Assembly: GCF_000003815.2 (NCBI RefSeq)
Contig: NC_049993.1
Location: 16,386,897-16,450,896, forward strand
Length of the DNA stretch: 64,000 nucleotides
Origin: Branchiostoma floridae
Lineage: Eukaryota > Chordata > Leptocardii > Amphioxiformes > Branchiostomatidae
Reading direction: 5' to 3'
Below, piece by piece: positions 10,909-55,404 of this stretch. The stretch's first letter is position 1. Every line of letters starts with the position of its first letter. A program made the position numbers and the translations under genes. The notes under the pieces were generated by a model, which was not told the DNA's origin, did no database searches, and saw only the letters and a program-made list of their open reading frames with translations.

Positions 10909-10945
10909 ATGCTTAAATTTTCTGTAGGTTACTAGGTTCTTAGCT

Positions 10946-13345: not shown

Positions 13346-13352
13346 GAGTAAC

Positions 13353-13514
13353 CACCCGTTTCTGGTATACTTAGCCGATAGTATCGTTAAGTGGGAGTCA
13401 TTCTAAGCCGATAGTATCGCATAAGATCGAGCCTTTCGACCGTCAACGGGAAGTTCTTTACGATAATATCGAAGTCAACGTAAGTCTGAAGAAGTCTCGC
13501 GCGGTGCGTGCCGG
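13353..13514 (+). repeat. Left TIR of the KDZ transposon (138 bp + 24 bp)
   Basis: 13353-13490 pairs with 46348-46485 (one mismatch seen, near 13426). The next 24 bp, to 13514, pair with 44931-44954, because a nested element splits the right TIR. Three near-palindromes CGATA-N-TATCG sit at 13376-13386, 13409-13419 and 13461-13471. They are good candidates for transposase-binding sites. Confidence 0.93.
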
Positions 13515-16108
13515 TATGGGACGGGGTCATCCCAGCTGCGGCAGTACCTCCTAGCTGGTGCGTCGGCCATTTTCACGTAGTGTTTACTCGCTGACAAAGG
13601 TTCGTCTTTAATATCTAACATTTGTTATGATTTACCCGTAATCTACACGGGGAGATGGCATATTTGTCTATCGTGTGTTTTCTGCCACCAACAAACCGCC
13701 AAGTGCGGCGCATGATATACCGTTAATGTTAACGTTTAACGTAAGTTACAGTATCACCTTGGCCAAGGACGTTATACAATTCACACGGTGTGTGTATGAG
13801 ACAGTTAAAATGACATTGAAATAAGCCCAGGTGTGGCTGGACAGACTAGAATTGGGTGATAACTTAATTGGCCTCAGGTTTCATATTCTCCTTCTTTATT
13901 AGATTACATTCCAAAGTAAACGTAACTGTGGGGTGTAAAGTTAACCTTGACCTCACAAAGCGTTTCGAAAACAGAGTTGCAAAATGATCATTATGCAAAT
14001 AACATCTCCACTTCCCTGATTTTTTTTTAAAGTTGGATACGGTATGGAAAATTTATTTTCAAGGACTCACAGTCCTATGTCAACAGGCCAGGTGTATCTT
14101 GACTATAGTAGAAACAACTTGTTTAAACACATACCAACGTGATGGTGATTATGTAGCTTTTAATTTTTGTTTGTTGTTGTCCTTGTATTATTTTGCTAGA
14201 CACCAGCTTCATGGTGCTTGATTTATATACTCATATGCAAACTCTAGCCCCAGACTATTATATATAGAGAGGTTCATTTTATAACCTGCATGCTATGGTC
14301 CAAGTAACAATGTATTACTGACATACAACTGTTTGTTTGTTATTCTGAACAAGGTCTGAGGTTTTATGTATTACCAGGCATTGTTCTGAAGATTGAAAGA
14401 AAGATTAAGAAGAATATTAAGTTTGTTTCTTTCTTAAGTTTGGTGAATGTGTATTGTACGAGAATAAATGACTGTACCATTCTATAATTAAGGATTAATG
14501 ACCCGGCCCAAGGTGTATATGGTGTCATAGTAACGCCTTGGCCTTTGCTATAACCACCGAATAAAACCACAGAGTGAGCGAAGCAAACAAGGTGGTTTGA
14601 TGAGGTGTAGCTATTATCATATACCCGAAAATTGCAAACTCCTGTATGACGCATAGATCCGTTGGTACGTGTGAATTGCTTTGTCAAATTTCTGAGAATT
14701 TACATCTGTTGGTACACATATTTGTAAGGAGACTCGGAGCCGCCGTTTGAATCAGAATCACTAGCTCCTGAGTTTGATACTCGCCATGCACGGCCCCGGG
14801 CATGACGGTGGAGTGACACCCACCGAGCCTCTCGGCTAATCTGTCAAAAAGGGTGCACAAAACACCAGATTTGGTGCTCCACTGCGTCAACATCTGCAAA
14901 CTTGCCACTAAGACCCACAAATTTTGTTTTTTTACACCTTTATTCAATACTTCCAACCAATGTGGATTGCCTACTTCAAATATCTTGTGTAGAATTGATT
15001 TTTAAGCATGCTTTAAGCTTGGTATGGCCTGATTTTTGTGCCTGCCTTATATATATTAGCTTACACAACAGCCTAATCTTTCTGATTTGTCACTCCTTGA
15101 CTCAAAATAACAAATTAAAGAAATCCAATTGTAGTGGCTAATAGAGAAGACCTAAAAACTACCAAAATCTTAAGAGCATCTGATGTGTGGATGTATAATG
15201 TATTGGAATAGTAGTCATGTTCACTACTACTGTGTTCATCAGCCAGTGATATTATCCCTGCAATAACGTTAACAGTTACTGACTGTATCCTCACCTAAGT
15301 ATATGTTAGGTGGGACATTTTGCCCTGTTCCTTTCCCTGGAAGAAAATTGGATTATTTCCATGTTACCATGTACAAAGTAGCCACAAACAACCATTTTTG
15401 TGATGAAAATCCCCAAAAAATTTTGGAAGGCTTCATAGGTCTACAAGTTTAAAAATAAAAGATGACATGTTCCTGAGCATATATTTATTATATTTCTAAG
15501 CTATTCCATGATCAGATACTTAGGAGAAATATAGCATCTTAACTATCATGACAATTAAATTAAGAGCAAGTGATAGTGCACATATTCAAGGCAAAAATTA
15601 GCTAATGGCAGTAAAGCGTTCAACATTTAAGCCTGCATGGAAATGAGTGCCAGATGATTAAATGAAATAAAAGCTCCTTGATGAACCCCATAACAGGTTT
15701 TAGGTAACCCAGTTGTATATTTTTGGAGCTGACAAAAGCCAGATGGATACATGTGCCAAAAAAAGTGTATGAAAAGCAAAATACTAATGTCTGAGTTTAC
15801 AAGTTGTAAAGTGTGATGATTGTGGGAAATCTATAATGGCCAAGTAGAAATCATAGAAGCTTTGAACAGGAACACCTGATAAAATGTTTTGCATCACAGT
15901 GCCCCATACACTGCTTGTTCATATTGCAAATAGGAAATATGAATTAAGCACTACAAGATCATCTACAGTATAATTCTATTGCATGTGGCCTGTTTACATC
16001 CTTGCACAACTTTACATTTAATGTTTTATAGGATGTTGTTGGGTGTTATAATGGATGGTAGACAGTATTCAAATGTAAAGTGACCTCTTTCACCTTCTGA
16101 ACCTTCAG
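13515..16108. other. 5' region of the transposase gene
   Basis: No supported coding exon. The ATG at 16111 directly follows a plausible acceptor (CCTTCAG ending at 16108), so at least one non-coding exon probably lies upstream. It may be near 13515-13620, where GC content is locally high next to the TIR. The rest is AT-rich with no repeat I could delimit. Confidence 0.4.
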
Positions 16109-16110
16109 GT

Positions 16111-19100
16111 ATGGGAAAGAGAAAGTTTGAGGGCATCAGTTGCTCCAGGCCAAGGACGCCTAGATTCCCGATAACTTCATGCCGCCTGGATGGCTCTAAG
16201 GAGCATGGCTTCGTCTACCTGCCTGGTTCAAGTTCTGTTGAGGTACCTGGAACTGGGCCATCTCAGCAGCCAGAAGCATACTTGCCACCACCTGCTGATC
16301 CGGTTGAGCTGGACCAACCTACAACTGCATCAGTCTCATCAAATAGATATAGAGCAGAGAAAGAGAAAGAGCTGGCCAAGTGGGAGGAGCTGAGAGATCG
16401 TCTCCTGGAAACAGCCACACAGATGGCGGCACCAGCCAGCTACTTGTGTTCCATCTGCAGCAAAGAGGAAAGTTCCCCCATAAGCTGCGAGGAGTGTGGC
16501 CCAACTGTAACCTATTGCCCGGAGTGCTGTGTGAAATGTCACAGCACTCCATCACATCACCCAAAGCAATGGCTGGTATGTACATGCCTTTTGAAACTGG
16601 ATAAATCAAGATGGATTGAAACAGATATCCATTTGATACATATGTTTGACAAAAAATCAATTTGTGCTCATTTCAACTTAATTTGCATAGTCACTGATAC
16701 TTACATGTATTTTCAAAATAAGAAAAGCATTATTATGTACATTAAGAGTACTGATAAGGATGTTGATATTTTGCTTAGATAATGTTATGAGTTAATCCTA
16801 AAAAATCTGCTGGAATTTTGTGATAGAGGTACATGTACAGGGTCATGAAACACTAGTTGTGCATATGTTTTGTTTTTCTTTAGATTTAATTGTTACATCT
16901 TGCAGGTATGTTGCCATCAGTATTGATATGTATGTACTGTCATATAATGTTTTTGCTAACTGCTAGTCATTACCAGCTATCCTAAGGGCTTGGAGTATGG
17001 ATCTTTTGTTGTTAACTGTGCATTTGGAAACTGTCAAAGCTGGAAGACTGAGGAAAGACATCTCTACTAGTAACTTCTAAGCCTCATATTGAGAGTTATT
17101 GACTGAGAGTTTGCAAGAGTGATGTTTTTAAAATTTCCATAGGATGTTACCACATTTAGTGGGTGAGAATGGGTGCATAGAAATTTAAGCTTTACACAGC
17201 ATACCATTTTATTTCTTATTCCAGGAGGACTATTACCAGTATGAACCTTTTGAACCTACCACCTCTGAGAACATCATCCTAGAGAGACCAGACCACAAGG
17301 ACTGTGCTAACAGAATACTGAAGCCCTTCAATGTTTTCGACAGCACAGGTGCAGCAAACAGTTTCATTTGCCTTAGAAGTTCAGTTTTGGTACACTTCAA
17401 TTTCACCATATGAGTAACTTTCAATTGATGCAGTCTGACTGAAAGGACATTCAATTTTTGGCCATGCCTCGGGGGCGTGCCAAATTGTCTATTATTGTAT
17501 TCTGTCTGCAAAAATAATCTAGGAACTGTGAAATACATTTTACTTTTTTGGTTACACGCAAAATTGCAAGCGCAAGGACATGTATGGATGTTGGGCAAGC
17601 CGGGCACCCAACACCATCCTGCCAGCAGATAATCTTGTACAATACTGAGAAGTATTTCAATATGTTTGCTTTCTTGGTACACATTCTTACACTACTCTAA
17701 TGGGAATTCCAGTGGCACTGCCCAACACTACCTCTCTCAGGCTATCAAATCCAACATTACCTCCTTCATTGGAATTCCAACAATGCCTCTCTGGCCGGAA
17801 TTCCAACATTGCCACTGGAATGCCAACACTGCCACCATTTTATTTTTGGAAAATGAAAAAAAAAATGGACATTTGAATCTGTCAGAAGCAACTAATGAAA
17901 CTGGTGTGGCCTTATACTGCTATTTCTAATCTGATCTCTAAGAAGCAGGTGTGTAACTATCATGATTAAAACAAACCTCCAGACTAACGTTTTGACAAAA
18001 GTGTACTCGTGTGCCCTTAACCTAAAAGACTTACTAGTAGGTGCAGCAACCAGCTAAGGCAATAACTTGATGTTATTATTGCAATATGAAAGCAATAGCA
18101 AAATCCAAGCTTTGGACATAATGTGACAATACAGTTTTGACACAGATGAGGGGATTTGGAGCATTTTCATCTAATAGATTTTTTACCTACAAACAGGTGA
18201 TAGGCACATTGGGTGTGCTTTATGGACATTATCATCAACAAAAAGTATAAATTTGTATGTGATATTAAGTTAGGCCAGGACTTCAGTCTAACCATATCAC
18301 TGCTATGTTTAACCCGTTTTCAGGTCGACACTCCTTCTGGAGAGTTTATGTATGCTCCCACGAGGAAGAGGCCTGCACCCTTCTTCGCTTTGGGCTGTGG
18401 GCAGCCAGCGCTGATAGACCCCAAACGGCATTTTCGACATCTTTGCTAGAGTGGCTAACTGCACTGACGTTGGAGTGTCAAGTGTCTGTGCTAGGGTTTT
18501 GTAACGCCTTGCGGTGGAGGCATAATCTTTCAGTACCTGAGGTAAAAGATCATTTTGAATGTGTTTGGGCAGGTCAGGTTACATATTACACATATGAAGG
18601 TAACTGATTATCTGTGTTTCATATTGAAATTCACTTTCATCACTGCCTTTGGCTCTGTTTCTTATTTTTTACCGTACAGAGAATTCATGATGTGTTTTCA
18701 CCATATTGTACAGAAGAGGTTCGTCGTACATGTTCTTATACCTGAATTAGACCATACCATTGGATTGAGTGTTAAAATGCGCGCCTCTTATGTCCGCAAA
18801 TCCAATTAACATCAAAATCAAACGGGTACAATGATAATCATTGAATTTCAAATTGCAATGACCCAATATCTGTTACAAGCCCCTTTGAGCGACAAAATAA
18901 TGACCACAGCAATCAGGACACAGAAATGTAATAGAATGGCTCATTGGAAACTAATGACCGTAATACGCAACTTTACATCTCAGATCCTTTTTGTATCAGG
19001 TGGGGGTGATGAAAGGGAATTTATCATGCACCTGAACAAACATCTTGATACCCAATTATTTTTTGGGCCCAGACTCTTTTAGAGTACATTATCGGATTAG

Positions 19101-22100
19101 TACAGGACCTTATCCAAAACAAGATTTTAAAGAACCTAAACATCCATAAGATGATGTTACAGTAACATAATGTAATTCTCTGTAAGATAAAGTTATATAA
19201 TCATCTGCTTGGTATATCCACATATAATGATGGTGACATTTAAATACACCATGAAAATGTGGTGACACATATATAGCAAACATTGCTATCCATGATATAA
19301 CTAATGCACAACTTAAATTAAAGCACTCGCACACCTTAGTTCTGCATTATAGTTTGTCAGTCATTCATGGGCATTACTTGCAAATGGTATATGGGGTTCT
19401 TCATCCAAACAGTCATATATATGGGATGTTAGCACTGATGTGTGAAGCATTGCAGTGACAGCTTTCTATTCTCTGTAAGGTAAACCTTTTGTACAAGGCG
19501 TTGATTGGGGAACCAATGGCAGAGTTCCACCACTACATACATAGGAAGAGGACTCTGCAGCATCTTTGCTCACAAGCAGGCAGTGGGACTGAATGCCCTG
19601 CCTGTCCAAAGGTTAGGACTTTTTTCCATGCATTTCAAATGTCTATAACAGTGTAAAGAACTGTATGATTGTCTTTTCCACAGCAAACCGATGTATTTTT
19701 CTGTGCTTATTCTATACCTAACCCTCATCTATTAATAAATATTTATACTTTTTCTAAATTGTTACTTTTTTACAAAACTTTTTCTAAACAATAGGATGAT
19801 GGGAATCTGATGGTGTCGCTTGATGCGAACTTCGGCCTTGTGCGAAAAAGGACCGCAGGTAGCAGTTCAAGAGCACCGCTGCACAAGGACCTTTACTTCC
19901 TTGACGATGCCGCTGTACAGGACTTCATGTCCACCTACTCAGAGGAAGTTAAACCAGATGAGGTGATTGTGATGTCTACCTGTTTCATGTGACATTGATG
20001 ATGATGATGAATGGTTTATTACTATTATAATATTAGGGTAAAAAATAAACAAATATTAGAAGTGGCTGTTATTATCCTTTCATGCTTGCATCTTCATGTT
20101 CAAGATTAATGGTATGAAAATTAATTAATATATGTTTTACATATGATGTAGTCAGTAATGCACCTTACACTTACTCTCCAAGCAGAGGTTAGGCTAAGGC
20201 TGTGCAGATTATAATTGCTGACATGCCACTTACATTACTAAACCTGCAGTGGTCCACATAATTTTTCAAATGGATGAAAATATGTTTTTTTTCACCTGTC
20301 AAATGAAGGCTTCAAAGTTAAGTTTTCTGTGTTTAACAAAACTCAGATTGAAATGAAGAAAATGAGGAGTGCTCCTCCATGGTATCCTGTGTAGGTATGC
20401 ATAAAAGGTCTTTCCATCATTGCTGTGATAGATACAGTCATAGATTCACCCTTCAGTTTCCTGATGTACAGAAGTTAAGATATATTTTGATGTGTAGCCA
20501 ATGTGTCAGGAACTGTATTAAATGTTGCTTTATGCAGGATTGCAACAACTTTAAGGCTGGCAGCTCAGTCCGGTCTAAAGGGAGACAGGAAAAACTGCAT
20601 GTAACAGGGGTTTTCGGGGCGGTATGTCGCCACAGCATGCCATTGAAATTCCTCAATATGCATCACGGTGAAAGGTTTGGCTTAAGCTTTCCTTTATTTC
20701 AAAATCTGTTTTCTGTTCTGCTTAATGTTTGTTTGGATGATAATGTTTTGGTAAGAGATATGGTAATGGCCATTACATGTCAAGCACTGATGGGCATACG
20801 AGGTCCAGAGTCTAGCAATTTAATGGCAATGATACAGTCAGAATTTCGTCTGTTGAAGAGGTTTGATTCATATCTATGGTTCAATATATATGTCATGTTT
20901 TGTTATAGATAATCAGTGTAGTCAGTTATTCTTCACCAGACTTCTACACTGGCTGACATATTACATCATTACTTGGCCAGACTAGGAGAATACCATACGA
21001 TTGTAACTCAGTAAATCGAGACTTAACATGGCTTTTATTGACCATATAGATATAGCAACTCCTGTATTCTGATTCAACTGTTTTTCAGTCAATGGTAAGT
21101 CTGGTAGAGACTAGTAAGTTCTTTTTAACCCTGCAATTTTGTAAACCCTTTTGATTTTTTTGGTCTTGATGTAGGCTGGGATATCCTGTATACATGATAC
21201 AGCAGCTTCTGTCGTCAGTCCAACCAGGGACTAATGTAAAACTGCTTGTCATGTATGACATCGCATGCATCATGACATCTCATCTACGTGTGAGTGACCT
21301 CATTCTTAAACATAGCTTTCATCGTGTCTTTTTCTTGTGCATACTAATGTGATTGAGATTTCCAATCTAGCCGGGCAAAATTGTGGATTTTTTCATCTGT
21401 CACTGCATGGGTATATTGTCTGGCATTGCAGACACAGCATCAGCAGGAATAGTTGTTTGATTATGAGAAAGAATTGTATTTTTTTTGAATGGTGTATATT
21501 TTGCTGAATTAAGTCCAAAACTGTTGTATATCATTGTTACATTTTGAGCATCATATGCAACTGTTCTTATAATTTTTCTTTTTTTTTTCTATTAGAATGC
21601 AGGTATGGATGAAATGTTGGACAGCGTCAAATTTGCCATTCCGATATTTCACTGCTATGGACATAAGGCTTCTTGTCAGGTACAACTTAACATTATCAGC
21701 AATATTTCCATGTGAGATCGCATAGCGGAGTGGCAGCATCTTTGTGCATTCATTTAATTTTTCATTTCAATGATTTGCATCTTGTAAATGACATTTGGCA
21801 ATGCAGTAATCTACTAAATCAACACAAAATGCAAAATAAAGAATTCTTAATTTTCTTGAGCATTTTCTTGAGACTTTTCAACCAAACTTCTACTAAGTAT
21901 AAGAAAATGAGTGCTCTAATGTGCAATTAATTCAATCTTTTATTACATTACCTGCACCCGAGTGCAGGCATGGTGTCAGCAAAAGTGTAGTGAGTTACTG
22001 TGATGTTAACTTTCCAATTATGACAATTTGGATAATAGGTCCTCTACAGCCCTAGACGCTTGGAGGGATTTGGCCTGACTGATGGGGAATGTGTTGAGAG

Positions 22101-25100
22101 GCTGTGGTCATTCCTGCGGAGATTTAGCTCGATTACCAAAGAAATGACCCCCAGTCACCGCACAGACCTCCTGACAGATGCTTTGCTACATTATGCCAGG
22201 AGGAAAGTTTCAGATATGCGTAAGTTTTAGCCATCTATATACAAAAATGTTGATGATATTACAATAAGATTCGTCTTCAGACCACAATTAGTTTTACATA
22301 ATACGATGATGGCTACTGGTATGGCGAAAAATGTCTACCGGTACATGTCTTTTGTACATACTATAATGGCTATTGGTATTGAGAAAAACATTTACATACA
22401 TCACGCAGTCAGATGCTCACTTGAAGTCACTGTGACTTAAGTTGCAAATATGACAAAATTGAGATACCCATACTTGTCATAAACCATGAAGCCGTAGAAT
22501 TGTTAGAGGCGGGGAATACTGGTTATCCACAGATCAGCAACCACCTTACACGGTTGTCATTTGTTTTTATCACCTTTGTTACACTTAATATCTACTCTCT
22601 GAACCAAAGTTGAGAATCTACAGTAATTTAAGTTGCTTGTTAAATTCCCTGATTGTGTACCGGTGCATCAGGGATGAAGCAAGGGGAGATTGGGAATATT
22701 ATCAGTGGAACTCACAGTTTTACTAATTTGTTTGTGTTACGTGAATCCCTGTAATTCTACAGCCATGAGCATCATGCAGTCGTTTGACAAGGCTGTGGCA
22801 ACACACAACATGGCAGAAAATGAAATTGCAACTCTTCTGAACCAGTCTCAAGGTACAGTGTATTCTTTTTACAACAATTGAGTTTTGGCAAGAGGGATGT
22901 CAAGCTTGTTTGCTCCAATCAGGTATCTGCTATGGACTAGACTCCATATTGCAGTCTTCGGAACGGGGCCTTTTTTTTTGGGGGGGGGTGTTGGTCCGCG
23001 ATTTTCAACGTTGGCTATGTTCTCTTGTGCTGGGAAAGGGAGTTTGACGAGGAAGGGAGTTTGCTGTGGAAGGGAGTTTGCCGTGATAGCCAGTTTCCGC
23101 CGTCTCTGCAGGGAAAATCGCGGACCCCCCCCCCCCCCCCCAAAAAAAACAGCCACGTTCCTACATTATACTGGTTTGTGAATGTTACACTCCCATACAT
23201 ATACTAGCATAGAGTAAATGAACAATACTAAATAGCTTGAGCCAACTACTTTTGTTAGAAATAGGGTTCCTGGCATTCCTGTCAGAGCTGACATAATGAA
23301 AAATAATTGAAAGTAAAAACATAATATTTTGTCTAATATAAAAAGAAATAAGACTAGCTGACAGTGATAAGGAAATGGAGTAATAATCAGCTCAACATTG
23401 CTTCCAAAGCTGTTTGCTGCTAACATATACCAAATGTCATATTGACAGTGGCAGTGACTGAAGAGGATGTGGAGATGTGGAGACAAGCTGAGATCGACAC
23501 CATCACTGCAAGAAATAAAGAAAAGCCAAGCTGTAAGGACTCTGCTTTGCCTGCCATTTGAAATTTGTTAAGTAGTTAACTGAAACGGTTACAGTGATGT
23601 TGAATTCTGAGTGGAGATTGTTGACAACAGCTGGTTGAGATGTTATAACGTTGCTTCTGGAATATGGGTTTCAGTTTATTAACTACTGTAACTGTAACAG
23701 TATAACATATGGTCAGAGTATTAGATTTCATTGATAGTTAACATTACATTGTAGCAGAGGAACACTGATTTCCTACATAATATTAACTTGGTTGATCTCA
23801 TCTATTCCAGCCACAGTGAGACAATGGAAGAAGGCATATGTCTTAAACTTGTCTGCCTTTGTATCATTAAGGTAAGTAGATCAGAAATGGCATAGCTAAT
23901 GTATAATAATGACTACGCTGTTATAAAGACAAAATCAATATTTTCAGTGGAACATGCTTGTAAATCATACAAACTATAACTGTCATTGATCATTCAGTCA
24001 AAGTAGTGAGAACATCTGATGACAATTATGTACCCTTTGGAAATGGTCAGTGGTTAATGTGCCCGGATGTCTATTCAACAGAGAGGAGATTCAGTCTTGC
24101 AGAGATGGAAGTCTTCGTACAGCACTGTTGGCTCGCTACAGGGAGTAAGTGCAACATTTTCTTTCCTATCATGATGACCTAAGTGGTAGCTCTTTTTTGG
24201 CATTCTGATTCAATGTCATAAGGTATTGTCAACCTTATCATATACTTTATGTTATAGCAAAATGGTTATAGTGATCATTGATTTGTGAAAGGGTCCAATG
24301 AATGAGGAGTCATGATGGTTCACTTACCTTACCCTTAGACCTTAGGTCTTCCCGTGCCGTAACTAGACACATGTAATTGGGATAAGAATGTGCACATGTG
24401 CTCCTTTGGGCCTGAGAATAAAATTTTCCAACGGCAGTGGGGACTTTCTGGATTACCATTTATAGCCTGATGTTTGTGTGAGCTTTGACTGAAATATTGG
24501 AATGCAGAAGGTAAAAATGGCATAGATGAACATAATTAGATAGTAAATCTATAGATTTAATGACTAAATTTGCATTATTGAATTAAGTTTACATTACCTT
24601 AGTATCAAATTTTACTACTTACATCGTGAAGTAGTGGATTAGGGTGAGAGAGTTGAGGACAACTAGACAGATGTAAAGACACAAATGTCAACTCCAAAAA
24701 AGTGGAAAAGAATAGTTGTTAAATGTGCAATTACATAGGATTTTTAGGTGCATAATAATAGTGCTTTCTTTTCATGTTACACGAAAACACAGTATTCACT
24801 AAACATTGTCCTGTTCTTATACTTAAAGGTGTCTAACTTATTTTTCAGATTGGAGAAAAAGCTCACTGACACAGAGGGCATTAGGGGCATCAGTCGCTGG
24901 AAAGAGGATAGTGAAGAGTACAGGGCAACGATCCTCCATGTTGACACGGAGGAGAGAAAGCTGGTCTTGGAAAAGCTGTGGAGGGAAGCGTCGGAGAGAA
25001 CCTTCTTGTTGTCTTTGAAGAGGAAATATCCAGGTTTGTTAAAATAATGCTGAATGGGCATAAGCCCCAGTATGACAGTGTATACAATCTGTGTCCATTT

Positions 25101-26901: not shown

Positions 26902-27904
26902 TGAACACTAACCAAGTCCCAATTTCTTCAACATGCATAAACAATGAGTCTGTAAAAAGATAAACAGCTAGTAGAACTCGAAGCGTGCCTTTCTGTGATG
27001 CACTGTGGTACTATGGCATTTATTATGACTCAGATGTAACGTTAGATGCTTTGAAATCATAGCTCTTTGGACTGTAGATGTAATTGTCATGTTGAAGCTA
27101 ATATGTAGCATGCAGTATCCTAGATGCAATGTTGTGAGCAACCATTTTGGATATCCATATCTACAAATAGCTTGCAATCATATATTTCATGACTATATGT
27201 ATGCTGTCAGTAACTGTAAGTCCCTGAGGCATGACTGATTGAACAAGGAAGCAGAGCACTTTCTGATGTTCGGATTCTGTGTTTTATCAAAATTCCATTG
27301 AATAAGTAGCTATGGAGAGGGATGAATTAATTGTGTGTTAAAGATGCTCTCCAGGAAATGTTTAGGTATATAATGTGATGGGACCTGGTGTGTATCCTGC
27401 TATGCAATGCTGACTTAAAGTGTTAATGACACCAATGACAGCAATGTATAACATTTTGGTGATTGTAATCCATTGAGATAGAATTAGTGCCAACACAGGA
27501 CAACATCCAGTTGTGCATTGTATATAAAGGTATGAACAAGTTGGCCTCTATTTTGCAGGTAGACAGTTATTGATTTAGATCCATTTTGTCAAGCTTTATT
27601 TTGCTGCAGTCAAATCATCAAGAAATAAACAGTGGTCTTTGGGAAAAAATCTGCTTCTGAGGTCCATGATTTTTAGGGCAGTTCAGCAGCCATCATCATT
27701 CATATTTTTGAGTGAAGGGTAAATCAGTTGCTTCTTTAAGTTACCATGGTGACGTAAGGTTATTTACAGTACTGAAAAGAAAGCCTACCATATGCATGGT
27801 GTTGAAGTTGTCATGTTTTTGGATGGTGACACAGAATCTTCTGAAATTGCAAATAACTTTATATTCTTAGTGGTATTTTGCCTATGTTTGTACCTTTTTT
27901 TTAT

Positions 27905-30900
27905 AGAAAAGGCTAAATTTGCTATTCAGATGCAAGAACAGCAATTTTTCCATAAAGCATAGATATCGCGAAAGGAAGTCTGATTTCCTTCAAACCAAAT
28001 TGAATGGAGGCGAAATGATTTCCTGACATCACGTATGCCCTCTTTTTGTCAAAAAAGCTAAATTTGGCCCTTTGTAATCTCCAAGCAGATCCTACAATGG
28101 CATAAGATAGTACCAAACTGGCCAAGGAGTATAGTTAGCCAAGAGGTGCCCATTTGCCTCCAAGCAGATCCTACAATGGCATAAGATAGTACCAAACTGG
28201 CCAAGGAGTATAGTTAGCCAAGAGGTGCCCATTTGCCATGTAGATAGCAAAACACACTCCTAAGCCGGCTTCACTCCTCTGCCAGCTTTTGATACTATAT
28301 TATGCTACCATAGGATCTGCTTGGAGATTAGCCCTTTGAACCAAAAATAGCAGATTTCATCCCAAAAATGAGAGGTCGACAAACAGTGTCTGATTTCCTT
28401 CAAACCAACTTAATTAGGTGCGGAATAACTTCCTGACATCTCGTTCACCCTCTTTTTGTCGAAAAAGCTAAATTTGGCCCTTTGAACCAAAAATAGCAGA
28501 TTTCAACCCAAAAATGAGATGTCGACAAACGATGTCCGATTTCCTTCAAACCAACTTTATTAGGTGCGGAATAACTTCCTGACATCTCGTTCACCCTCTT
28601 TTTGTCGAAAAAGCTAAATTTGGCCCTTTGAACCAAAAATAGCAGATTTCAACCCAAAAATGAGATGTCGACAAACGATGTCCGATTTCCTTCAAACCAA
28701 CTTTATTAGGTGCGGAATAACTTCCTGACATCTCGTTCACCCTCTTTTTTTCAAAAAAGCTAAATTTGGCCCTTTGAACCAAAAATAGCAGATTTCAACC
28801 CAAAAATGAGATGTCGACAAACGATGTCCGATTTCCTTCAAACCAACTTTATTAGGTGCGGAATAACTTCCTGACATCTCGTTCACCCTCTTTTTGTCGA
28901 AAAAGCTAAATTTGGCCCTTTGAACCAAAAATAGCAGATTTCAACCCAAAAATGAGATGTCGACAAACGATGTCCGATTTCCTTCAAACCAACTTTATTA
29001 GGTGCGGAATAACTTCCTGACATCTCGTTCACCCTCTTTTTGTCAAAAAAGCTAAATTTGGCCCTTTGAACCAAAAATAGCAGATTTCAACCCATCCTAG
29101 TTCAAATTATGATGTTCCTGTGTTGATTGAAACGTGGTCTATGTGAATCTAAAGGGTACTGAAAACGAACAATGCCATGAACTTTTGCGCCTTTTGAAGA
29201 CAGGTACTAGAGGAATCGATTGTTACGTACGGAGGAATTGAGAAATATCGGAGCTGTTAACAGCACGGGTAGGTCAATATATAAAGCTAGTTTTGATATC
29301 ATTTCGTCTACAGTTGCAATAGCGTACTTAAGGCTTTGAACTAATGCTATTTTCACCCCGCTCAAAAGACACCAAACACCAAATGATGTAGGGTTAGAGG
29401 TATATATCGTAAAATAGACGCAGGTTTCCATAGAAGTCTTTCAAAGACACTTTCATTATGCCAACACTTTCATTATGAGTGCCTGCACTCAAACGTTTTG
29501 GATGGAGATATTTGGACGCAAGGTCAAAAATGCGTGCTTTCCTATCAGAAGTTCAACTGCACGTATCTCAATACCAAATTACACACAACCATCATATGAC
29601 ATTTCAGATCCTAGCTAAGTACACTTTTATGCATCTTTCAGCCAAATTTGAAGTAAATCTGTTGTAGTTTAGAGGAGATACGAAAGTAAGAGACGTTTTA
29701 GCCTCGCGTAAAGCGAGGTCGTTTGTCAACTGCACTTGTTCGCATGGACAATTTCGGGCGAAATTGTACCGCATCAAAGGTAATTGTGTTTTTCTCTGTA
29801 AGACGAGAAAGGAGTGAAATATCTCCGTAAAATTTTCAGGAAAGCCGGTTAATACGCTTATCTAGCTGTGCTTTTAATAGCTTTTCTCTTGCTGTATTCT
29901 GTTATGAGATATAAGGCTTTGAACTATTGTCATTTTCACCCCGCTCAAAAGCCCACCTTCGGAAGTAGGTTTTACCCCAAACTCCCTGTAGGGTTAGATA
30001 TATAAAGTAAAAAGGACGCAGTTTTTCATAGAAGTCTGTCAAATACATTTTCATGATGCCACCACTTTCTTTCTGAGTACTTTCAATCAAAAATTTTGGA
30101 AATATTTGAACTTTTATTTGGACGCAAGGTCAAAAATGCGTGATTTCCTATCAGAAGTTCAACTGCACGTATCTCAATACCAAAGTACAACCATCATCTG
30201 ACGTTTCAGATCCTAGCTAAGTACACTTTCATGCATCTTTCAGCCAAATTTGAAGTAAATCTGTTGTAGTTTAGAGGAGATACGAAAGTAAGAGACGTTT
30301 TAGCCTCGCGTAAATCGAGGCCGCGTGTCAACTGCACTTGTCCGCATGCGCAGTTTTGGGCGGAATTTTACCGCATCATACGTAAATGCGTTTTTCTCCC
30401 TAAGACAAGATAGGAGTGAAATATTTTAATGAAATTTTCAGGAAAGTAGGTCGATATGCTTATCTAGCTGTGCTTTTAATAGCTTATCTCTCGCTATATT
30501 CTGTTAGGAGATATAAGGCTTTGAACTATTGTCATTTTCCCCCCGCTCAAGAGCCCACCTTCGGAAAGTAGGTTTTACCCCAAACTCCCGGTAGGGTTAG
30601 ATATATAAAGTAAAAAGGACGCAGTTTTTCATTGAAGTCTGTCAAATACATTTTCATGATGCCACCACTTTCTTTCTGAGTACTTTCAATCAAAAAGTTT
30701 GGAGATATTTGAACTTTTATTTGGACGCAAGGTCAAAAATGCGTGATTTCCTATCAGAAGTTCCACTGCACGTATCTCAATACCAAAGTACAACCATCAT
30801 CTGACGTTTCGGATCCTAGCTAAGTACACTTTCATGCATCTTTCAGCTAAATTTGAAGTAAATCTGTTTTAGTTTGAATTCGAAGGAGATACGAAAGTAA

Positions 30901-31650
30901 GAGACGTTTTAGCCTCGCGCAAAGCGAGGCCGCGTGTCAACTGCACTTGTTTGCATGTACAATTTTGAGCGAAATTTTTCCGCACCCAATTAATAAAGTT
31001 GGTTGGAAGGAAATCGGACAACTTTTCGCGACATCTTATTTTTTGCTAAAAGTTTCGATTTCTTGCCTGAAATGACCAAATTTAGCTTTTTTGACCCAAA
31101 AATTGCATACGCCATGTCAAGAAGTTATTCCGCACCCAATAAAGTTGGTTGGAAGGAAATCGGACGACTTTTCGCGACATCTTTTTTTTTGCTAAAAGTT
31201 TCGATTTTTTGCCTGAAATGACCAAATTTAGCTTTTTAGACCCAAAAAGTGCATACGCCATGTCAGGAAGTTATTCCGCACCCAATAAAGTTGGTTGGAA
31301 GGAAATCGGACAACTTTTCGCGACATCTTATTTTTTGCTAAAAGTTTCGATTTTTTGCCTGAAATGACCAAATTTAGCTTTTTTGACCCAAAAAGTGCAT
31401 ACGCCATGTCATGAAGTTATTCCGCACCCAATAAAGTTGGTTGGAAGGAAATCGGACGACTTTTCGCGACATCTTATTTTTTGCTAAAAGTTTCGACTTT
31501 TTGCCCAAAATGACCAATTTTAGCTTTTGTGACCCAAAAAGTGCATATGCGTTGTGCGGAAATTATTCCAAAACCAAAAGAGTTGTTTTGAAGGAAATTA
31601 ACTTTTCGCGACATCCTTTTTTTTTTGCTAAAATTGTCAATTTTCTTTTC
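27905..31650. mobile_element. Foldback-like composite: inverted 146-bp satellite arrays around a 3x ~595-bp core
   Basis: The left array (about 27905-29095) has units of 146 bp, about six copies apart from an inserted MITE. The right array (about 30985-31650) carries related 146-bp units in inverted orientation. Shared blocks are AATAAAGTTGG..GGAAATCGGAC, CAAATTTAGCTTTTT and GGAAGTTATTCCGC. The middle (29320-30970) holds three direct repeats about 595 bp apart, each with AAGGCTTTGAACTA, CACCCCGCTCA and a GCCTCGCG..CGAGG hairpin. Inverted arrays of tandem repeats around a centre is the architecture of Drosophila Foldback/Galileo elements. No transposase is seen. Outer edges are degenerate, so limits are approximate. 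Confidence 0.6.
28075..28330. mobile_element. hAT-like MITE with 8-bp target duplication
   Basis: Inverted ends TAATCTCCAAGCAGATCC (28075) and GGATCTGCTTGGAGATTA (ending 28330) are flanked by a perfect 8-bp repeat, GCCCTTTG (28067-28074 and 28331-28338). The 8-bp duplication points to hAT or another 8-bp superfamily. Two tandem 79-bp copies (28079-28157, 28158-28236) repeat the left end, including the terminal motif. It sits inside a 146-bp satellite unit, whose neighbours show the empty site. Confidence 0.88.
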
Positions 31651-31692
31651 GTCCTGAAGACAAGCGAAGTCACTAAACAATAGAGTGAATGG

Positions 31693-31907
31693 AAGCCGGT
31701 TAGGGTTTTTGGAATTCCGTGCAATTGACCGAATTGAAATTAACTGGCTTCTTGTAGTTCTACAGTATAAAAATGAATTTGAAAACGTCAGTGTGGCGCC
31801 TCATTTCCCACGGTGGCGTAAAATATAGTATCACACCCACCGGTAACCATTTGACTTCCTTGGCCAGGTTTGATACTATCTTATCACACCTTATGATCTG
31901 CTTGGAG
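31693..31907. repeat. Degenerate fragments: pogo-like end pair and hAT-MITE right end
   Basis: A short inverted pair, GAAGCCGGTTA..TAACTGGCTTC (about 31693-31753), contains GTGCAATT as in the pogo-like MITE at 33816. Next, 31858-31907 resembles the right end of the 28075-28330 MITE (TTTGATACTATCTTAT..GATCTGCTTGGAGA) with no matching left end. Both look like relics. Confidence 0.4.
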
Positions 31908-32575
31908 AGGAAATGCTCATGGGTCTTAGTGTCTGAAATCCATGCCGCTATGCGTGTTTCTGACTTAATTTACATAATTTGACGTCACAGAAGCAGTGGC
32001 TTTTTCATTCCTTTGAGTTGAACAGGCGAAATATTAGGTAAGTCCAATTTTTGTGTTGGATACAACAGTTTGACTTTATTCAGAATGACTTCTACCAACA
32101 AAGAAGAACTCTCAAGTAAACAGAAAAAGAGTGGACTCCAGGCCAGGCTATGATCACCCATGAGACACATGTCAACCTGAAGGGGCAGGGGTCTGAAGGA
32201 GGGAACGATCATTATGTGTCTTGGTAGAATCCAAGTCATATTTTTAGTGGAAGTTAATGGACCAAGTATATTACAACATACAAGAAAAGTTAGAAGGTAT
32301 AAGAGTTAGAAGTTGTGTAAATTCATTCCCCTCTTTCAACCTCCTTGAAACTACTTAGGGGCTACCGTCCTCACCATGGCAACTTGAAACTAGAAGTTAA
32401 TGGTATTTCCACACACGTGTATGTGAGACCTCGCCCCGTGGATCTTCGACTTTCGTCCTGGATTCTGCAAGTTGTCTCTTTATTCCTTAAAAACTGACCG
32501 TCTGAGTCCACTTGATTTCCCTTCGTCAACCTTTCCCTGTAAAGCTACGTGTCTGCTAATAGATTAGTAGACAAA

Positions 32576-35500: not shown

Positions 35501-35879
35501 TGTGTGGAGGCTTACAGGTTGTGCACAGACATCAACGGCCTAAGACCAGGACTTGATGATTACAACAAACGATGTAGGGTCCTTAAAGACTAGAATCTTG
35601 GCTATTACAACAAACGATGCAGTGAATGTACATATACGGTTTAACGTTCTTTGAAATGATAAATTCAATGCGACAAGGGCGGGGTTGTGGGTAAGTGAAA
35701 GGCGGGCCAGGCCGACCCAGGCAGCAGATGTCACGCAGTGAGGTCAAGGGTCACTTCATTCGGCAAAATTCCATACAATTGCTCTACCAGCAATCCCACC
35801 ATGAGTGTTTTTGTCCATGTTTGTGTGTCCGTGTGTGCGTGTGAGAGTATGTGTATGTGTGAGTCTCTGTGTGTGACAG

Positions 35880-35922
<43 letters not shown>

Positions 35923-38900
35923 TTTCTCAAGTACTTTGGTGGTGTAACATAACCTGGAGTTACCATGTGCCTAAAAACTAAATCATACCAGCTTAACCAA
36001 TACAGATGCAGATTCTAACTGTATCATAGTCTTTGATGGGCATCAAGGGGTATTAAAATGTCATCTTTGTGACTAGTCTGACATTACCTTTTCAGGCAAG
36101 ACAGTAACAGCAGATGCTGGACGGGCATGGGCGAAAATGAAAGAAAACAAGACAGCTGAGTATAGAGACTATATCAGCAGAGCTGCTGAACTGGAGGCCC
36201 ACACATCAAAGCCCACTGACTGCTCTGAGGAGGAGAGGAGGAGAGCAGTGAGCAAACTCCAAACACAGATGATGAATATAGTTGAGTATTTGGAACATAC
36301 CTATTTTTGTATGTTTGCAAATTACTAGAATTACTCTGCATGGAATTCATTCATCCTGCACATGGTTTAATATTAAAACATTCCTCTTTTCCTGTCAGTA
36401 GATTCCAACTTATTGCAAAACCTTCGCTATCAAAAAATCTGGTAAATTTCAAATGGTCATGGAATCCAAAAATATTTGCAATTACAGTTTGTAGCTGGAC
36501 TCCTCTGTAAAAGCAACAAAGCAGTACATTTTTCTTGATAGCTAACATATGACATTGCAATTAATTTACAGTCACAGTGTGATTATAACAGGACATGATG
36601 AGTATGATGTTTGTGAATGGAAAGTAAATGTATCAAATTTGTGTTTAGATGTCCAAGATGAGAATGTGCGGTGTTGACATAATGGCCATGACACTGGACC
36701 ACCATACAAACAAGACAAAGAGGCTGGGGACAGATGCTGGGATCAGATTTCTGCAGGAAAATGCCACCATTGAGTTGAAGTTTGTGACAGCACTCACAAA
36801 AGAGAGTAAGTATGGAAAATGATAGGAATATACAGTGCTCATATCAAAAGTGTTGTTATGCGTAAGGAACTTTGAAAAAAATTTAGAATAGTGAACAAAG
36901 TGGTTTAGCAGACTTATGATGCAACAATGAAAACAAACAAAAAATGAATCAAACACCCAACGTCCCAAATAGTATTGGCATGCAACTGATCTACATGTAC
37001 ATAAGATTTAATACTAGCAAATGTGAGGTTTAATAGTAACAAAGTCAGAAGGTTGAAAGTTGGTTGATGCAACAAATTTACATTTCAATTTCAGGCAAAG
37101 ATGAGAGTAACCTGCAGGAAGAGGCAAGGGAATTTCTCAACAACACATGGTGTAAGTAACATGTTTCATGCCTGTCAGTAATTGCATTGCAGAAATGTTT
37201 GTGGTGGTTTTAATCTTTGCAGTTTTCCCCCACATACCTGGATAAGGTTTTGTATTTATTTCTTGATATGATAAAGTAATAGCATGTAATGGGAAGACAA
37301 GATAAAGGATAAGTGGCTGATTTGAAGAAAGTAATGACTTGAAAGTGGGGCAACCTGAACTGTTGATGGCACAACCTGGCTTTTGCCTGGGCAAACACTG
37401 CTTCTTGTTACAATGTAAGTTTTCTCTAAATAAACCATCTTGCCTGTGGATGATACAAATTGTCATGTTCTTTGACTGAATTTGACTTACACAAATACTG
37501 AGAAGCATTGAAAGCATTCAAATTCTTTGTCCTTGTTGGATATTTGAACGTCATTGTATGTGGAATAGCTGACTCACAGATCGTATAATTTCAGACATTG
37601 CATCAGGAAAGAAGAGTGGCTTTCCTTATGCTCAAGTGAGGAGGGGAGAAGTTGTTGTGGAGGGCCTGCCGGAGGGATTTGACCTCAAACAACCGAGAGA
37701 CATGAAGGAGTCGGATGTAAAGCTGCTACTGTCATGCAGGGACAGGTTCAAAGTCCGAGGTGAGTCAAAGTGGACTCCAATAAAAGAGTGTTATGTTCTG
37801 TGAATAAAATGCCACAACATTCTGATTTTTTTCAGAGTGCTAGTAATATTCTTTAGGTTAAAAGTGTGTCTTGCATCAAAGTAGAACCTTCAAATGTCAG
37901 TCACAGAAATTGTGATATTACATTAGAATGGAACATAGCAAGAAACTACATGCCAAGGCAGTTATAAACATGTGACAGAAATGATAGGTTGATGAAATTT
38001 TATCTTTATACAGTTTTAACAACAAATGGACCATTAGCCATCACCTCAAGTGAACCATCAGCCATCACCTCGGGTGTACCATCAGCCATCATCTCAGGTG
38101 TACCATCAGCCATCACCTCAGGTGGACCATCGGCCATCACCTCAGGTGGACCATCGGCCATCACCTCAGGTGGACCATCGGCCATCACCTCAGGTGTAAC
38201 ATCAGCCATCACCTCAGGTGGACCATCGGCCATCACCTCAGGTGGACCATCGGCCATCACCTCAGGTGTACCATCAGCAACCACCTCAGGTGTACCATCA
38301 GCCACCACCTCAGGTGTACCAGCAGCCACCACCTCAAGTGGACCATCAGCCACTATCACCTCAGCAGGTAGAATCACATCAGGTGGAATGGATCATTCAG
38401 GGCTCAAATTACTACCTGCATGCACCACTTTGTGCATTTCAGTTTGGAGCTGTGCACATACTTTTCTTTGCTGTACTTGAATAGGTGGAAGGAAAGATTT
38501 GTACAGGAAATAAAGACCATCATATTTTGAGTTTTAATCAATGTGGATACATTTGTCATGCATTATTCTAGGTCTTTGACCTTAATTTCCAATCCCTTTA
38601 ACCAGTGCAAAGTGCCAACAGGCTTACTTTGACTGATAAAAGATAGAGTCAATGGTTGGGCCAGGCGAAATATTACATGAAACTTTATTAATTTTATGGT
38701 ATGTGCAAGCAAGCTAAAATGTGTATTTTGAGCCCTGATACAATTTCTTCATAATCATAGTCTTGCATATTATCACGGTATCTTTCTTCTATTCTTCTAT
38801 TAGACGTGCCAAACTGGCAACATATGTACCATGTGTTCATTTGTCATACACATGTTCCTTTAAGGTCTTTTTTTTTTTTAATGTAAAATTATTAGTGTTT

Positions 38901-39276
38901 TCTCATATCAGCAATTGGACAACAAGGTAACTGTAAGCATTGCACTTAAATGCCAGAAGAATATAGATGCAAGTACCATTGACCATTTTTGCATTCTAAC
39001 ACTGGCCTAACACTTTGTCTATTTTGTGTCAATTTTTGTATTACAGATTACCATGTGATGACCAATGTCAACATGGCAGCTTTAACTCAGACTGGGGGTG
39101 GACTGTATGAAGTGGAGGCCCTGCTGGGGAAAAGGAGGAGAAAGAACAAAACAGAGTACCTTGTAAAGTGGAAGGGGTATGGGCACCATGACAATTCATG
39201 GGAAACTGCAGAAAGTCTAAAAGACACCATGGGCTCTGCTGGTCTGAAACGTTTAGCAAGGAATATACGAAAGTAA
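32576..39276 (+). CDS. Transposon-borne HTH/HMG-like/chromodomain protein, 9 exons, 517 aa
   Basis: Exons: 32576-32697, 34047-34188, 35225-35366, 36096-36280, 36649-36805, 37095-37151, 37595-37759, 38014-38367 and 39047-39276. All joins are in phase; stop TAA at 39274-39276. In order: ~47-97 resembles a homeodomain-like helix-turn-helix (MREKTTPGSIQLLKEAAEKT, HKTVEKWMYNHNKK). ~104-111 is a basic NLS (PPPKKKKV). ~118-185 is HMG-box-like (KTSGYNLFQADFF, AGRAWAKMKENKTAEYRDY). ~329-440 is 14 copies of an 8-aa repeat, x-PSAITSG. ~461-512 is a chromodomain (LYEVEALLGKRR, EYLVKWKGYG, SWETAESL) that keeps Y, W and Y at the methyl-lysine cage positions. It shares strand and TIRs with the transposase. 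It probably binds DNA and methylated histone in the nucleus; a role in target choice or as cofactor is inferred. The chromodomain call is firm and the HMG and HTH calls moderate. The donor after 36280 (GTTGAG) is weak. Confidence 0.82.
33028..33468. mobile_element. MITE with CAGTGATCTCGCCC inverted ends
   Basis: In intron 1 of the chromodomain gene. Ends CAGTGATCTCGCCC (33028) and GGGCGAGATCACTG (ending 33468) are a 14-bp perfect inverted pair. An internal palindrome (33094-33121 against 33161-33188, about 26 of 28 bp paired) lies within it. No clear target duplication, so the superfamily is open. Confidence 0.6.
33816..33997. mobile_element. pogo/Tigger-like MITE
   Basis: Intron 1 of the chromodomain gene. 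The left end CAGTAAAAGCCAGTTAATTG pairs with the right end CAATTAAGCGGCTTCAGTTG as imperfect ~23-bp inverted repeats. Internal GTGCAATTA/TAATTGCAC motifs are characteristic of pogo-group ends. No coding capacity. Confidence 0.55.
34640..35195 (+). pseudogene. 5'-truncated CR1/L2-like LINE, RT C-terminus and 3' tail
   Basis: In intron 2 of the chromodomain gene. The frame 34719-34982 has MMVFKCINGLVLTYL and FAYRGATYYNTLSADIR, then a Phe-Lys C-terminal helix, the usual tail of CR1/L2/Rex-type ORF2 proteins. A ~180-bp 3' UTR ends in a GAATAAATAAATAAATA microsatellite (35174-35192), as these LINEs often do. The 5' edge is approximate. Confidence 0.75.
35820..35922. repeat. (TG)n microsatellite
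   Basis: Interrupted TGTG-rich tract, with a long pure TG run at about 35883-35922, in an intron of the chromodomain gene. Confidence 0.85.
38028..38363 (+). repeat. In-frame 24-bp coding minisatellite (14 units)
   Basis: Fourteen 24-bp units such as GGACCATCGGCCATCACCTC plus AGGT lie within exon 38014-38367 and encode x-PSAITSG octads. Because 24 is a multiple of 3, copy-number change keeps the frame. Low-complexity Pro/Ser/Thr/Ala sequence separates the HMG-like and chromodomain halves, probably as a flexible linker. Confidence 0.9.
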
Positions 39277-42145: not shown

Positions 42146-43479
42146 GGGTTTACGGAAAAGGCTGGGCTGTCTACCAGGGCTGTCTACCTGGGCTGGCTAT
42201 CACGTCAGGCTACATGGACCTACGAAAGCCCATTGGGACAAAAGCTGTTTTAGCAGTAGGGGTTGTTTGTGCTCAGCGAAGAAGCTGTGTCTGAAGGATC
42301 TGTGTGTTATTATGTGAATGAGTTGTGTGAAGTAGCAGTGTGTGAAGCAGCTGTGTTTGAAGGAGCTGAGTATGTTACATAACCAGAGGTTCTGGGTTCG
42401 AATCAGTTGATATGCCACCGATTTTGTACACTTGGGAAGGGCTCTTAAAAATAAAAGAGTACCTATCTTCGGTAATTATAAGGGTCCCTCAGATAGGGCA
42501 AATGACTTACGGAAAAGGCTAGGGGTCCTTCCTTCCCAGTGTAAGTGGTTCAAAACCTTAAGTCCTATGGCTACACCTGGGGTAATTGCTGTCGTATTGA
42601 GGTCACCTGAGTTAGCACCGAATGGCAGCCGTTTTAGACCCTTGCATTTTACTTTACTTTATTTCAGGCTATAACTGGCCCATAAGACACATGGACAAAC
42701 ATGAAAAACATAAAATATGTACAACATTTTAGACCATCATGAAAATATTATGACTAAGTATAGAGGCGCCACCAGAGATTGGGGAAGAAAGAATTGTGGT
42801 AAAAAAGAGTCGGACCTGAGCACAGACTGCACAATGGTATTGGATGTATTGAAAAGCCTACTTACAAATGAATGGCACTGTTTGCGCCATCTGGCGTCGA
42901 AGGTATCCGTATTGTTAAATACAAACATTTCACTTGCGCTACAAGATCGAGGAAAATTCATTATTATACGGAAACAATTGTTGTAAGCAATGCGACATTT
43001 CGACAGAACATTCAAACGAAAAGAATTCAATTCTAGCAACGATTCAATTGTCGATCTTAATGTATGGCGTAGAAGGACCCTGACAGCCACTAAAGAATGG
43101 CTCCTGAACGCCTTTGACAAACTAGCCACCAGTCTTAAGACTAATCCAATCAGCCCAATAAATCGTGTTAATAGCCCTTCCCAATGTCACAAGATCGGTG
43201 GCATATCAACTGATTTGAACCCAGAACATCTGGGTTATATAACACACACAATTGCTTCACACAAAGCCCCTTCACACACCGCTCCTTCAAACACAGCTCC
43301 TTCACATACAGCCCATTCACATACAGTTCCTTCACACATAGCGTATTCATTGAGCACAAACAACCCTACTGCTAAAACAGTTTTTGTCCCAATGGGCTTT
43401 CGTAGGTCCAAGTAGCCTGACGTGATAGCCAGCCCAGGTAGACAGCCCAGGTAGACAGCCCAGCCTTTTCCGTAAACCC
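42146..43479. mobile_element. Mutator-like foldback element with 9-bp target duplication
   Basis: Ends GGGTTTACGGAAAAGGCT (42146) and AGCCTTTTCCGTAAACCC (ending 43479) continue as ~300-bp imperfect inverted arms. A perfect 9-bp repeat, ATAACTATA, flanks it (42137-42145, 43480-43488). A 9-bp duplication with long TIRs is the Mutator/MULE signature. Both arms contain 14-15-bp tandem motifs (CTCCTTCACACA-like). Frames inside (42990-43415) come from the arm repeats, so it is non-autonomous. The segment near 42580-42640 is also found inverted at about 57050-57090. Confidence 0.85.
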
Positions 43480-43871: not shown

Positions 43872-44010
43872 TAGAATACAACACGGTGTATTCCGTATCA
43901 CCCTAGGTAACCAGCCCGACCACGGGAAGGATCGCCCGGAGGGTGATTCGACCCGCGGGAGGGCTGGGACCGAGGGTGATGCGGAATACACCGTGTTGTA
44001 TTTTATTCGT
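43872..44010. mobile_element. Palindromic MITE, CACGGTGTATTCC ends
   Basis: Inverted ~40-bp arms: AATACAACACGGTGTATTCC at about 43875 and GGAATACACCGTGTTGTATT ending about 44003. They continue through CATCACCCT-like sequence, with a GC-rich loop of about 50 bp. Short non-autonomous DNA element; no target duplication fixed. Confidence 0.65.
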
Positions 44011-44930: not shown

Positions 44931-44954
44931 CCGGCACGCACCGCGCGAGGCTTC
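44931..44954 (-). repeat. Displaced inner part of the right KDZ TIR
   Basis: CCGGCACGCACCGCGCGAGG and the next four bases are the inverted match of 13491-13514, with one mismatch. Together with 46348-46485 this restores a 162-bp TIR. Confidence 0.8.
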
Positions 44955-44958
44955 TTCA

Positions 44959-46347
44959 CAGTCGAACCGCAGGTCACCGTAGAACGCGTTATTCTCTGAA
45001 ATACGTCGTACGCCGGGTCACTGACTGACCCCGCTGCATGGGTGTAAACTACAGCTTATTTGGCAACAAAGACACCTTAGGTATACATAATGTTTATACT
45101 TTTTCGTATCTACAGGATTTGCCCAGCACAGCCAAGTGGATATTTATTGCATTGCAAAAGATCAGCCAACGTTGTGGCCCCTCAAAAAAAAAGCAATTTT
45201 CGGTCTGTGTATTTGTGATTATCTTTTCTCCAGTTGGCCGGGACACAATCAGTTTTGTCCACAGTCGGACAGTCCAGTTCCTCACCTTTACATTGATACC
45301 AAACTTGAAGGGCAAATTTGAGGAGAAACGGTTTTGCCCCCAAATTAACTGCGAACATGCACAAATCACAGCGGTGAAGTTTCAGTCTGGTTGTAGCTAC
45401 CCAAGCACACTACCCTGCGGACGGACCCAATTTTTATACATTTCGCATTGTGTCACAGACCTCATTAATTGGTACAAGAATCTGAATGGGTGTGGCTGTC
45501 ATATGCATTATAATAAGTGACATGATGATAATCAAACACACATAGACACAGAGTTTTAGTATAAAGTAAGAGTTTTTAAGATTCATCATATTTTGAGTCA
45601 ATCTGTTTCGAACTCCTGATCCGAACCTGGGTTCGAACGATGGAACCCAGCCGGTACGTTCCATGTTCGTGCCGCGGGGGTCAGGCCTAATGTTGCAAGT
45701 TCAACCAGCATTTGGAAAAGTTTATATAACTAACGGCTCAAGTCTTGCCGTCGCAAATAGATTTCGGGAAATCCACCAAAATAAAACTAACATTATCCAG
45801 ACGCCAGAATAAGTAGGATTCATGTGCAAGCGCAATGACGTCAAAACATCATGTCTGAGTTTTGTAAAGCATAGTGAAAGATCAGTGTGTGCGGTTTCTC
45901 TTTCGAAAAAAGACGCCAGGGAATTTGACATGGCTGTAGTTTTTTTGGGGGCAAAACCGTTTCTCCTAAAATTTACCCTTCAAGTTTGGTATCAATGTGA
46001 AGGTGAGGAACTGGACTGTCCGACTGTGGACAAAACTGATTGTGCCCCGGACAACTGGAGAAAAGATAATCACAAATACACAGACCGAAAATTGCTTTTT
46101 TTTCGGGGGCCACAACGTTGGCTGAACTTTTGCAATGCAATAAATATCCACATGGCTGTGCTGGGCAAATCCTGTAGATGTGAAAAAGTATAAACATTAT
46201 GTAGGTCTGAGGTCTTTTTGTTGCACAACAGGCAGTTGTTTATACGCATGCAGCGGGGTCAAACCAGGACAAACTGCGTTCTGGCTTATGACCTGTCCAG
46301 AGAACCTGCGCAGAACATGATGCGCATAGAGCTCTGCGGTTCGACTG
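44959..46347. mobile_element. 1,389-bp element nested in the right TIR (4-bp duplication TTCA)
   Basis: Ends CAGTCGAACCGCAG (44959) and CTGCGGTTCGACTG (ending 46347, one base between the 14-mers differing) are flanked by TTCA on both sides (44955-44958, 46348-46351). The intact left TIR reads straight across the equivalent site, so it serves as the empty allele. Inner parts (about 45085-45350 and 45945-46200) are a second, well-conserved inverted pair, containing GGATTTGCCCAGCACAGCCA on the left. No transposase is seen. Open frames here (45038-45520, 45822-46193) are the two arms read in either sense. Confidence 0.85.
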
Positions 46348-46485
46348 TTCAGACTTACGTTGACTTCGATATTATCGTAAAGAACTTCCCGTTGACGGTC
46401 GAAAGGCTCGTTCTTATGCGATACTATCGGCTTAGAATGACTCCCACTTAACGATACTATCGGCTAAGTATACCAGAAACGGGTG
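46348..46485 (-). repeat. Right TIR of the KDZ transposon, outer part
   Basis: Inverted copy of 13353-13490. The three CGATA-N-TATCG boxes lie at 46452-46462, 46419-46429 and 46367-46377. Its inner continuation is displaced to 44931-44954 by the nested element 44959-46347. Confidence 0.93.
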
Positions 46486-46492
46486 GAGTAAC

Positions 46493-55400: not shown

Positions 55401-55404
55401 CAGA

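Follow-up and report, generated by a model that had tools for sequence, protein, structure and literature searches.

Our analysis indicates that a 33,133-bp block of the Branchiostoma floridae genome is, with high probability, a giant KDZ-superfamily DNA transposon of full length. The block (13353-46485) lies within the window, by which we mean the whole 64-kb stretch of DNA that was analyzed, and is bounded by two outer inverted repeats (TIRs; Table 1). Its TIR alignment, the open transposase chain and the Pfam matches together support the preliminary description of this region as a KDZ transposon with matched ends, an open transposase and a second gene.

The two TIRs align over 138 gap-free columns with a single mismatch at 13427 (137/138 identical), which bears out the matched repeats proposed earlier, and self-BLAST of the window and a direct alignment each recovered the pair. 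A TIR length of 162 bp, given in the title of the preliminary description, was rejected because the alignment does not extend past 138. The proposed GAGTAAC duplication is perfect and directly abuts the TIRs on both sides; the eighth bases differ, so there is no 8-bp duplication. This 7-mer occurs six times on the plus strand of the window. The 7-bp parse gives the element CA..TG termini. The G at the start of GAGTAAC and the C at its end make a second parse equally exact, in which the TIR is 139 bp long and the duplication is the 5-bp AGTAA. Among the 25 inverted-repeat pairs listed of 34, the outer TIRs are the only pair that spans the element. In addition, each TIR carries three copies of the palindrome CGATARTATCG, and these six copies are the only ones in the 64 kb. 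When the window was shuffled 50 times by mononucleotide, any copy at all appeared in just 2 of the shuffles, and the palindromes are possible transposase-binding sites. Near-identity of the TIRs had also been taken to point to recent movement, which is a weak inference, and we do not use TIR identity as evidence of age. Unlike LTRs, the TIRs of cut-and-paste elements are not generated as identical copies upon insertion, and their likeness may be maintained by selection for transposase binding.

Table 1. Features of the KDZ element and its flanks, in window coordinates.
Feature	Position	Strand	Evidence
Left target-site duplication GAGTAAC	13346..13352		sequence
Left TIR, 138 bp, starts CACCCGTTTC	13353..13490	+	alignment, inverted-repeat search
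Palindrome CGATARTATCG x3, left TIR (starts 13376, 13409, 13461)	13376..13471	+	motif search
KDZ transposase gene, 17 exons, 946 aa	16111..26013	+	gene model, Pfam
Transposase exons 1-6	16111-16575, 17225-17348, 18324-18541, 18680-18718, 19480-19611, 19795-19962	+	gene model
Transposase exons 7-12	20538-20674, 21175-21289, 21596-21711, 22050-22219, 22763-22852, 23449-23532	+	gene model
Transposase exons 13-17	23811-23871, 24082-24144, 24849-25033, 25197-25384, 25528-26013	+	gene model
146-bp tandem arrays, inverted orientation, around ~600-bp direct repeats	27892..31908 (approximate limits)		repeat searches
Second gene, 9-exon model, 516 aa	32576..39276	+	gene model
Second-gene exons 1-5	32576-32697, 34047-34188, 35225-35366, 36096-36247, 36649-36805	+	gene model
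Second-gene exons 6-9	37095-37151, 37580-37759, 38014-38382, 39047-39276	+	gene model
Two exons for GTF2I-repeat-like domain (37095-37151, 37580-37759)	37095..37759	+	Pfam, PDB, hhalign
In-frame exon of 8-residue units (24-bp tandem repeat)	38014..38382	+	model, tandem-repeat search
Exon for chromodomain and stop codon	39047..39276	+	Pfam, PDB search
Nested element, inverted ends GGGTTTACGG..CCGTAAACCC, 9-bp duplication ATAACTATA	42146..43479		inverted-repeat search
Nested inverted-repeat element, arms ~325 bp, 92% alike	45026..46261		self-BLAST, inverted-repeat search
Right TIR, 138 bp, terminates GAAACGGGTG	46348..46485	-	alignment, inverted-repeat search
Palindrome CGATARTATCG x3, right TIR	starts 46367, 46419, 46452		motif search
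Right target-site duplication GAGTAAC	46486..46492		sequence
LRR gene, 552-codon open frame	48684-50339	+	self-BLAST, Pfam
LRR gene, shorter 357-codon open frame	53720-54790	-	self-BLAST, Pfam

The modeled transposase matches the Pfam KDZ domain (PF18758) with 148 bits (E 4.3e-43; curated cut-off 26.6), as well as CxC2 (38.3 bits, E 1.6e-9; cut-off 27) and CxC1 (34.1 bits, E 3.1e-8; cut-off 26.9). A rougher 773-residue join that preceded the final model already scored 161.6 bits against KDZ. The complete-looking 17-exon gene of the preliminary description holds up as a chain of 946 stop-free codons whose 16 introns are all GT-AG, in a hand-chosen model: recognized peptide cores were forced by script and exons were then picked one by one. 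Because the cores were forced in, their openness is not an independent test, and the Pfam matches are stronger evidence for the transposase than the openness of the chain. Automatic runs did not reproduce the chain exactly; those without forced cores were rejected for skipping KDZ exons, and those with forced cores for adding doubtful mini-exons. The exon count equals that of the preliminary description, which was known beforehand. The motifs SLDANFG, VMYDIACI and DGECVERLWS lie at residues 334, 453 and 516 and are candidates for the D-D-E triad. When the transposase and exons 1-7 of the second gene were searched against the window by tblastn (E 1), only their own exons were recovered. The first 561 transposase residues found no relative in a scan of prokaryotic genome contigs, nor did one exon in a viral scan.

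It is rather unlikely, though far from negligible, that this KDZ transposon is a copy that is unable to make transposase or has moved only in trans through other copies. Several of its splice sites score low (acceptor 23449, -1.1; donors 20674, -0.3, and 22219, -0.1), and the transposase genes of the giant families of Ectocarpus are frequently predicted to be pseudogenes (PMC12477816). Such a copy is argued against by the absence of any stop or frame break across the 946 codons and 17 exons, and by KDZ and CxC domains that exceed their cut-offs.

The large size of the element had been attributed in part to nested insertions, and those recognized explain about one-fifth of it. The block of arrays and direct repeats between the two genes is probably a nested repeat element. 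A clear target duplication flanks the insertion at 42146-43479, and the 9-bp length of this duplication suits Mutator-like elements. Around the inverted-repeat element at 45026-46261, no clear target duplication was seen by eye. A fragment at 34626-34979 reads like a LINE tail and has no Pfam match. Within a transposase intron, a G-rich/C-rich inverted repeat (22971-23148) may be a short nested element, and its reading frames look by eye like one at 55308-55595. All nested elements identified lie in introns or outside both gene models. Since the hand-set footprints of the array block, the elements at 42146-43479 and 45026-46261 and the fragment at 34626-34979 cover 6,959 of the 33,133 bp, recognized nesting accounts for roughly that one-fifth of the size.

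The second gene proposed for the interior of the element is present and encodes a chromodomain, with one uncertain junction in its model, from 36247 to 36649. Donor 36247 is the sole positive-scoring one among the phase-matched donors listed, and its use omits codons that read like coding sequence. The exon of 8-residue repeats may also be mis-modeled. The C-terminal chromodomain (Chromo, PF00385) scores 52.7 bits (E 4.1e-14; cut-off 25.1), and its best PDB match is the LHP1 chromodomain (E 1.6e-8). For the N-terminal part, Pfam returned only unrelated noise and the PDB two weak homeodomain matches (E 0.24 and 0.78); an HTH- or HMG-like reading was dropped, as the hits were weak. We give a minority chance to the second gene having been carried in, as an independent gene or as a nested element, and standing outside the transposon's own gene set. 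It is located past the block of nested repeats, and other insertions are present within the element. Against this, it shares the strand of the transposase and lies between the element's TIRs, and none of the 25 inverted-repeat pairs listed of 34 encloses 32576-39276 as a separate unit.

Profile comparison supports a resemblance of two exons of the second gene to the repeat that characterizes vertebrate TFII-I (GTF2I) proteins. Because the score for the GTF2I repeat (PF02946) stays below the curated cut-off of 27, we name the stretch GTF2I-like only. The whole second protein scores 16.6 bits (E 0.01), which is the unflattered figure, and the 83-residue domain alone scores 20.6 bits (E 0.00059); figures for the trimmed domain are flattered because region and family were picked after the fact. 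PF02946 matched none of five control sequences (one reversed, four shuffled). In hhalign, the domain aligned with six GTF2I-family domains at a probability of 94.5, and the reversed control at 1.5. A profile of the same six domains scored the stretch at 21.7 bits, and the highest score among 20,000 shuffled sequences was 11.2, which places the similarity beyond chance. The second protein thus matches the GTF2I repeat weakly across nearly the whole domain. Its identity is 24%, which counts against the GTF2I reading, and it also differs from the family in scoring below the cut-off, in the single copy found and in being transposon-borne.

PDB searches (E <=10) were less specific. The 83-residue domain gave 12 matches, of which seven were GTF2I-family chains (E 0.0069-1.1; best 2dzr, over 75 residues) and five were cytochrome f (E 0.12-0.19). 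The 59-residue exon likewise gave 12, again seven GTF2I-family (E 0.029-0.91) and five cytochrome f (E 0.056-0.11). That cytochrome f chains share the E range of most GTF2I chains also counts against that reading. As a benchmark, a GTF2I query itself recovers 10 distinct chains. An AlphaFold2 model of the 59-residue exon, built from the single sequence without an alignment, had a mean pLDDT of 56.3, and Foldseek found seven PDB matches to it (E <=10; best 6.1), none of them GTF2I; because the model is so poor, this speaks neither for nor against a GTF2I fold.

Outside the element, the left flank carries exons for the second domain of a receptor tyrosine phosphatase of LAR type, whose best PDB matches are PTPRS and LAR (82 of 87 residues equal to PTPRS by manual count of the alignment). 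On the right side lie two diverged LRR genes, one inverted relative to the other, within a large inverted duplication (48166-55382) whose longest stretch is 88% alike. Elsewhere we observed an ~850-bp unit tandemly duplicated at 98% likeness (10940-12633), 20-bp tandem arrays (TCATACGATCCTTACGGAAA) running in opposite directions (58349-58764) and, on the minus strand, a mariner-type transposase fragment with a Mos1-type HTH (59882-60220; Pfam HTH_48, 35 bits). Scans of the window for tRNAs and for Rfam families at gathering score were negative, and the only gap in the window is a run of 100 N at 61841-61940.

Multi-exonic KDZ genes can superficially resemble ordinary genes (PMC9297572), but a KDZ gene domesticated by the host and lying inside a chance or segmental inverted repeat is very improbable here given the 137/138 inverted identity, the perfect 7-bp duplication flush with the ends and the CA..TG termini. 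Just as improbable is an assembly artefact fusing two unrelated insertions, which the long repeats and arrays inside the element might favor, but which is opposed by the identical duplication at both outer ends and by the position of the sole N run outside the element.

The founding papers on this superfamily are reportedly Iyer 2014 and Boehne 2012. The 7-bp duplication falls within the 7-8 bp standard for KDZ elements (PMC12730594, PMC12810828), with the 5-bp parse also possible. In Ectocarpus, giant KDZ elements (KDZ-1_Ec32 and others) reach 30.3 kb, with nested insertions in most families and extra genes in many, and an active 31.7-kb KDZ element is cited for Chlamydomonas (PMC12477816). 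The B. floridae element shares with these giants a KDZ transposase, a size of about 30 kb, nested foreign insertions and extra genes. It differs in its apparently animal genome, judged by the flanking gene, and in its second gene, as a chromodomain together with a GTF2I-like stretch is unmentioned for KDZ elements in the portion of PMC12477816 available. With the fungal Kyakuja elements (Kyakuja-1_LB and -2_LB of Laccaria), described as having 7-bp duplications, CA..TG ends, no TIRs and a TET/JBP gene (PMC12730594), it shares the duplication length and the termini, but it has 138-bp TIRs and therefore is not filed as Kyakuja. No TET/JBP domain was found among the Pfam matches of the two modeled proteins. 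Zisupton has 8-bp duplications (PMC12730594), and KDZ1 of Cryptococcus is ~11 kb with 241-bp TIRs, 8-bp duplications and CxC1 (PMC12810828). The element has a KDZ transposase in common with both, and long TIRs and a CxC domain with KDZ1; its duplication is 7 bp, not 8, so it is not filed as Zisupton, and KDZ1 is far smaller. The element has the domains and the duplication length of the KDZ superfamily, and mixes Kyakuja and Zisupton traits.

Among animals, the Zisupton/KDZ elements of Pristionchus have TIRs and multi-exon genes (31 exons in one family), as does the present element; the text of PMC9297572 available reports no detected target duplication and mentions no cargo gene, whereas the B. 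floridae element has both. That text also places relatives of the Pristionchus proteins in lancelets, sea stars and mussels, and notes KDZ-like proteins in B. floridae itself. We found no report devoted to a lancelet KDZ element in the main texts of the open-licence literature, and the main text of a giant-transposon review (PMC6431247) mentions neither Zisupton nor KDZ. The preliminary description called the element rare material. This needs qualification, since algae are already reported to harbor giant KDZ elements that carry nested insertions and extra genes, and lancelets to have KDZ proteins; the unusual part here is the second gene.

These features suggest how the element may work. A DDE-type transposase would bind the three palindromes of each TIR, perhaps via its cysteine clusters, and, as expected from DDE transposons, would excise the whole 33 kb and reinsert it at a 7-bp staggered cut. 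With its GTF2I-like stretch and its chromodomain, the second protein would bind DNA or chromatin, and it might steer insertion to particular chromatin or shield the element from silencing. This role is proposed by analogy with chromodomain-bearing retrotransposons, which PMC12477816 links with targeted insertion. Other elements would have landed inside the KDZ element.

A structurally complete giant KDZ transposon in an apparent animal genome provides material on whether KDZ elements move loads of 30 kb in metazoans, and on the role of an accessory protein with a chromodomain in a cut-and-paste transposon. It also bears on whether a transcription-factor domain of vertebrates has kin among transposons. 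No literature joining TFII-I, amphioxus and the repeat domain was found in open-licence papers. It is conceivable, though improbable, that animal KDZ transposons encode an accessory chromatin binder with an ancestor-like or sister GTF2I repeat, and that the TFII-I repeats share descent with it or derive from it. If so, the DNA-binding repeats of TFII-I, which are disease-linked in people (Williams-Beuren region), would have transposon-borne kin.
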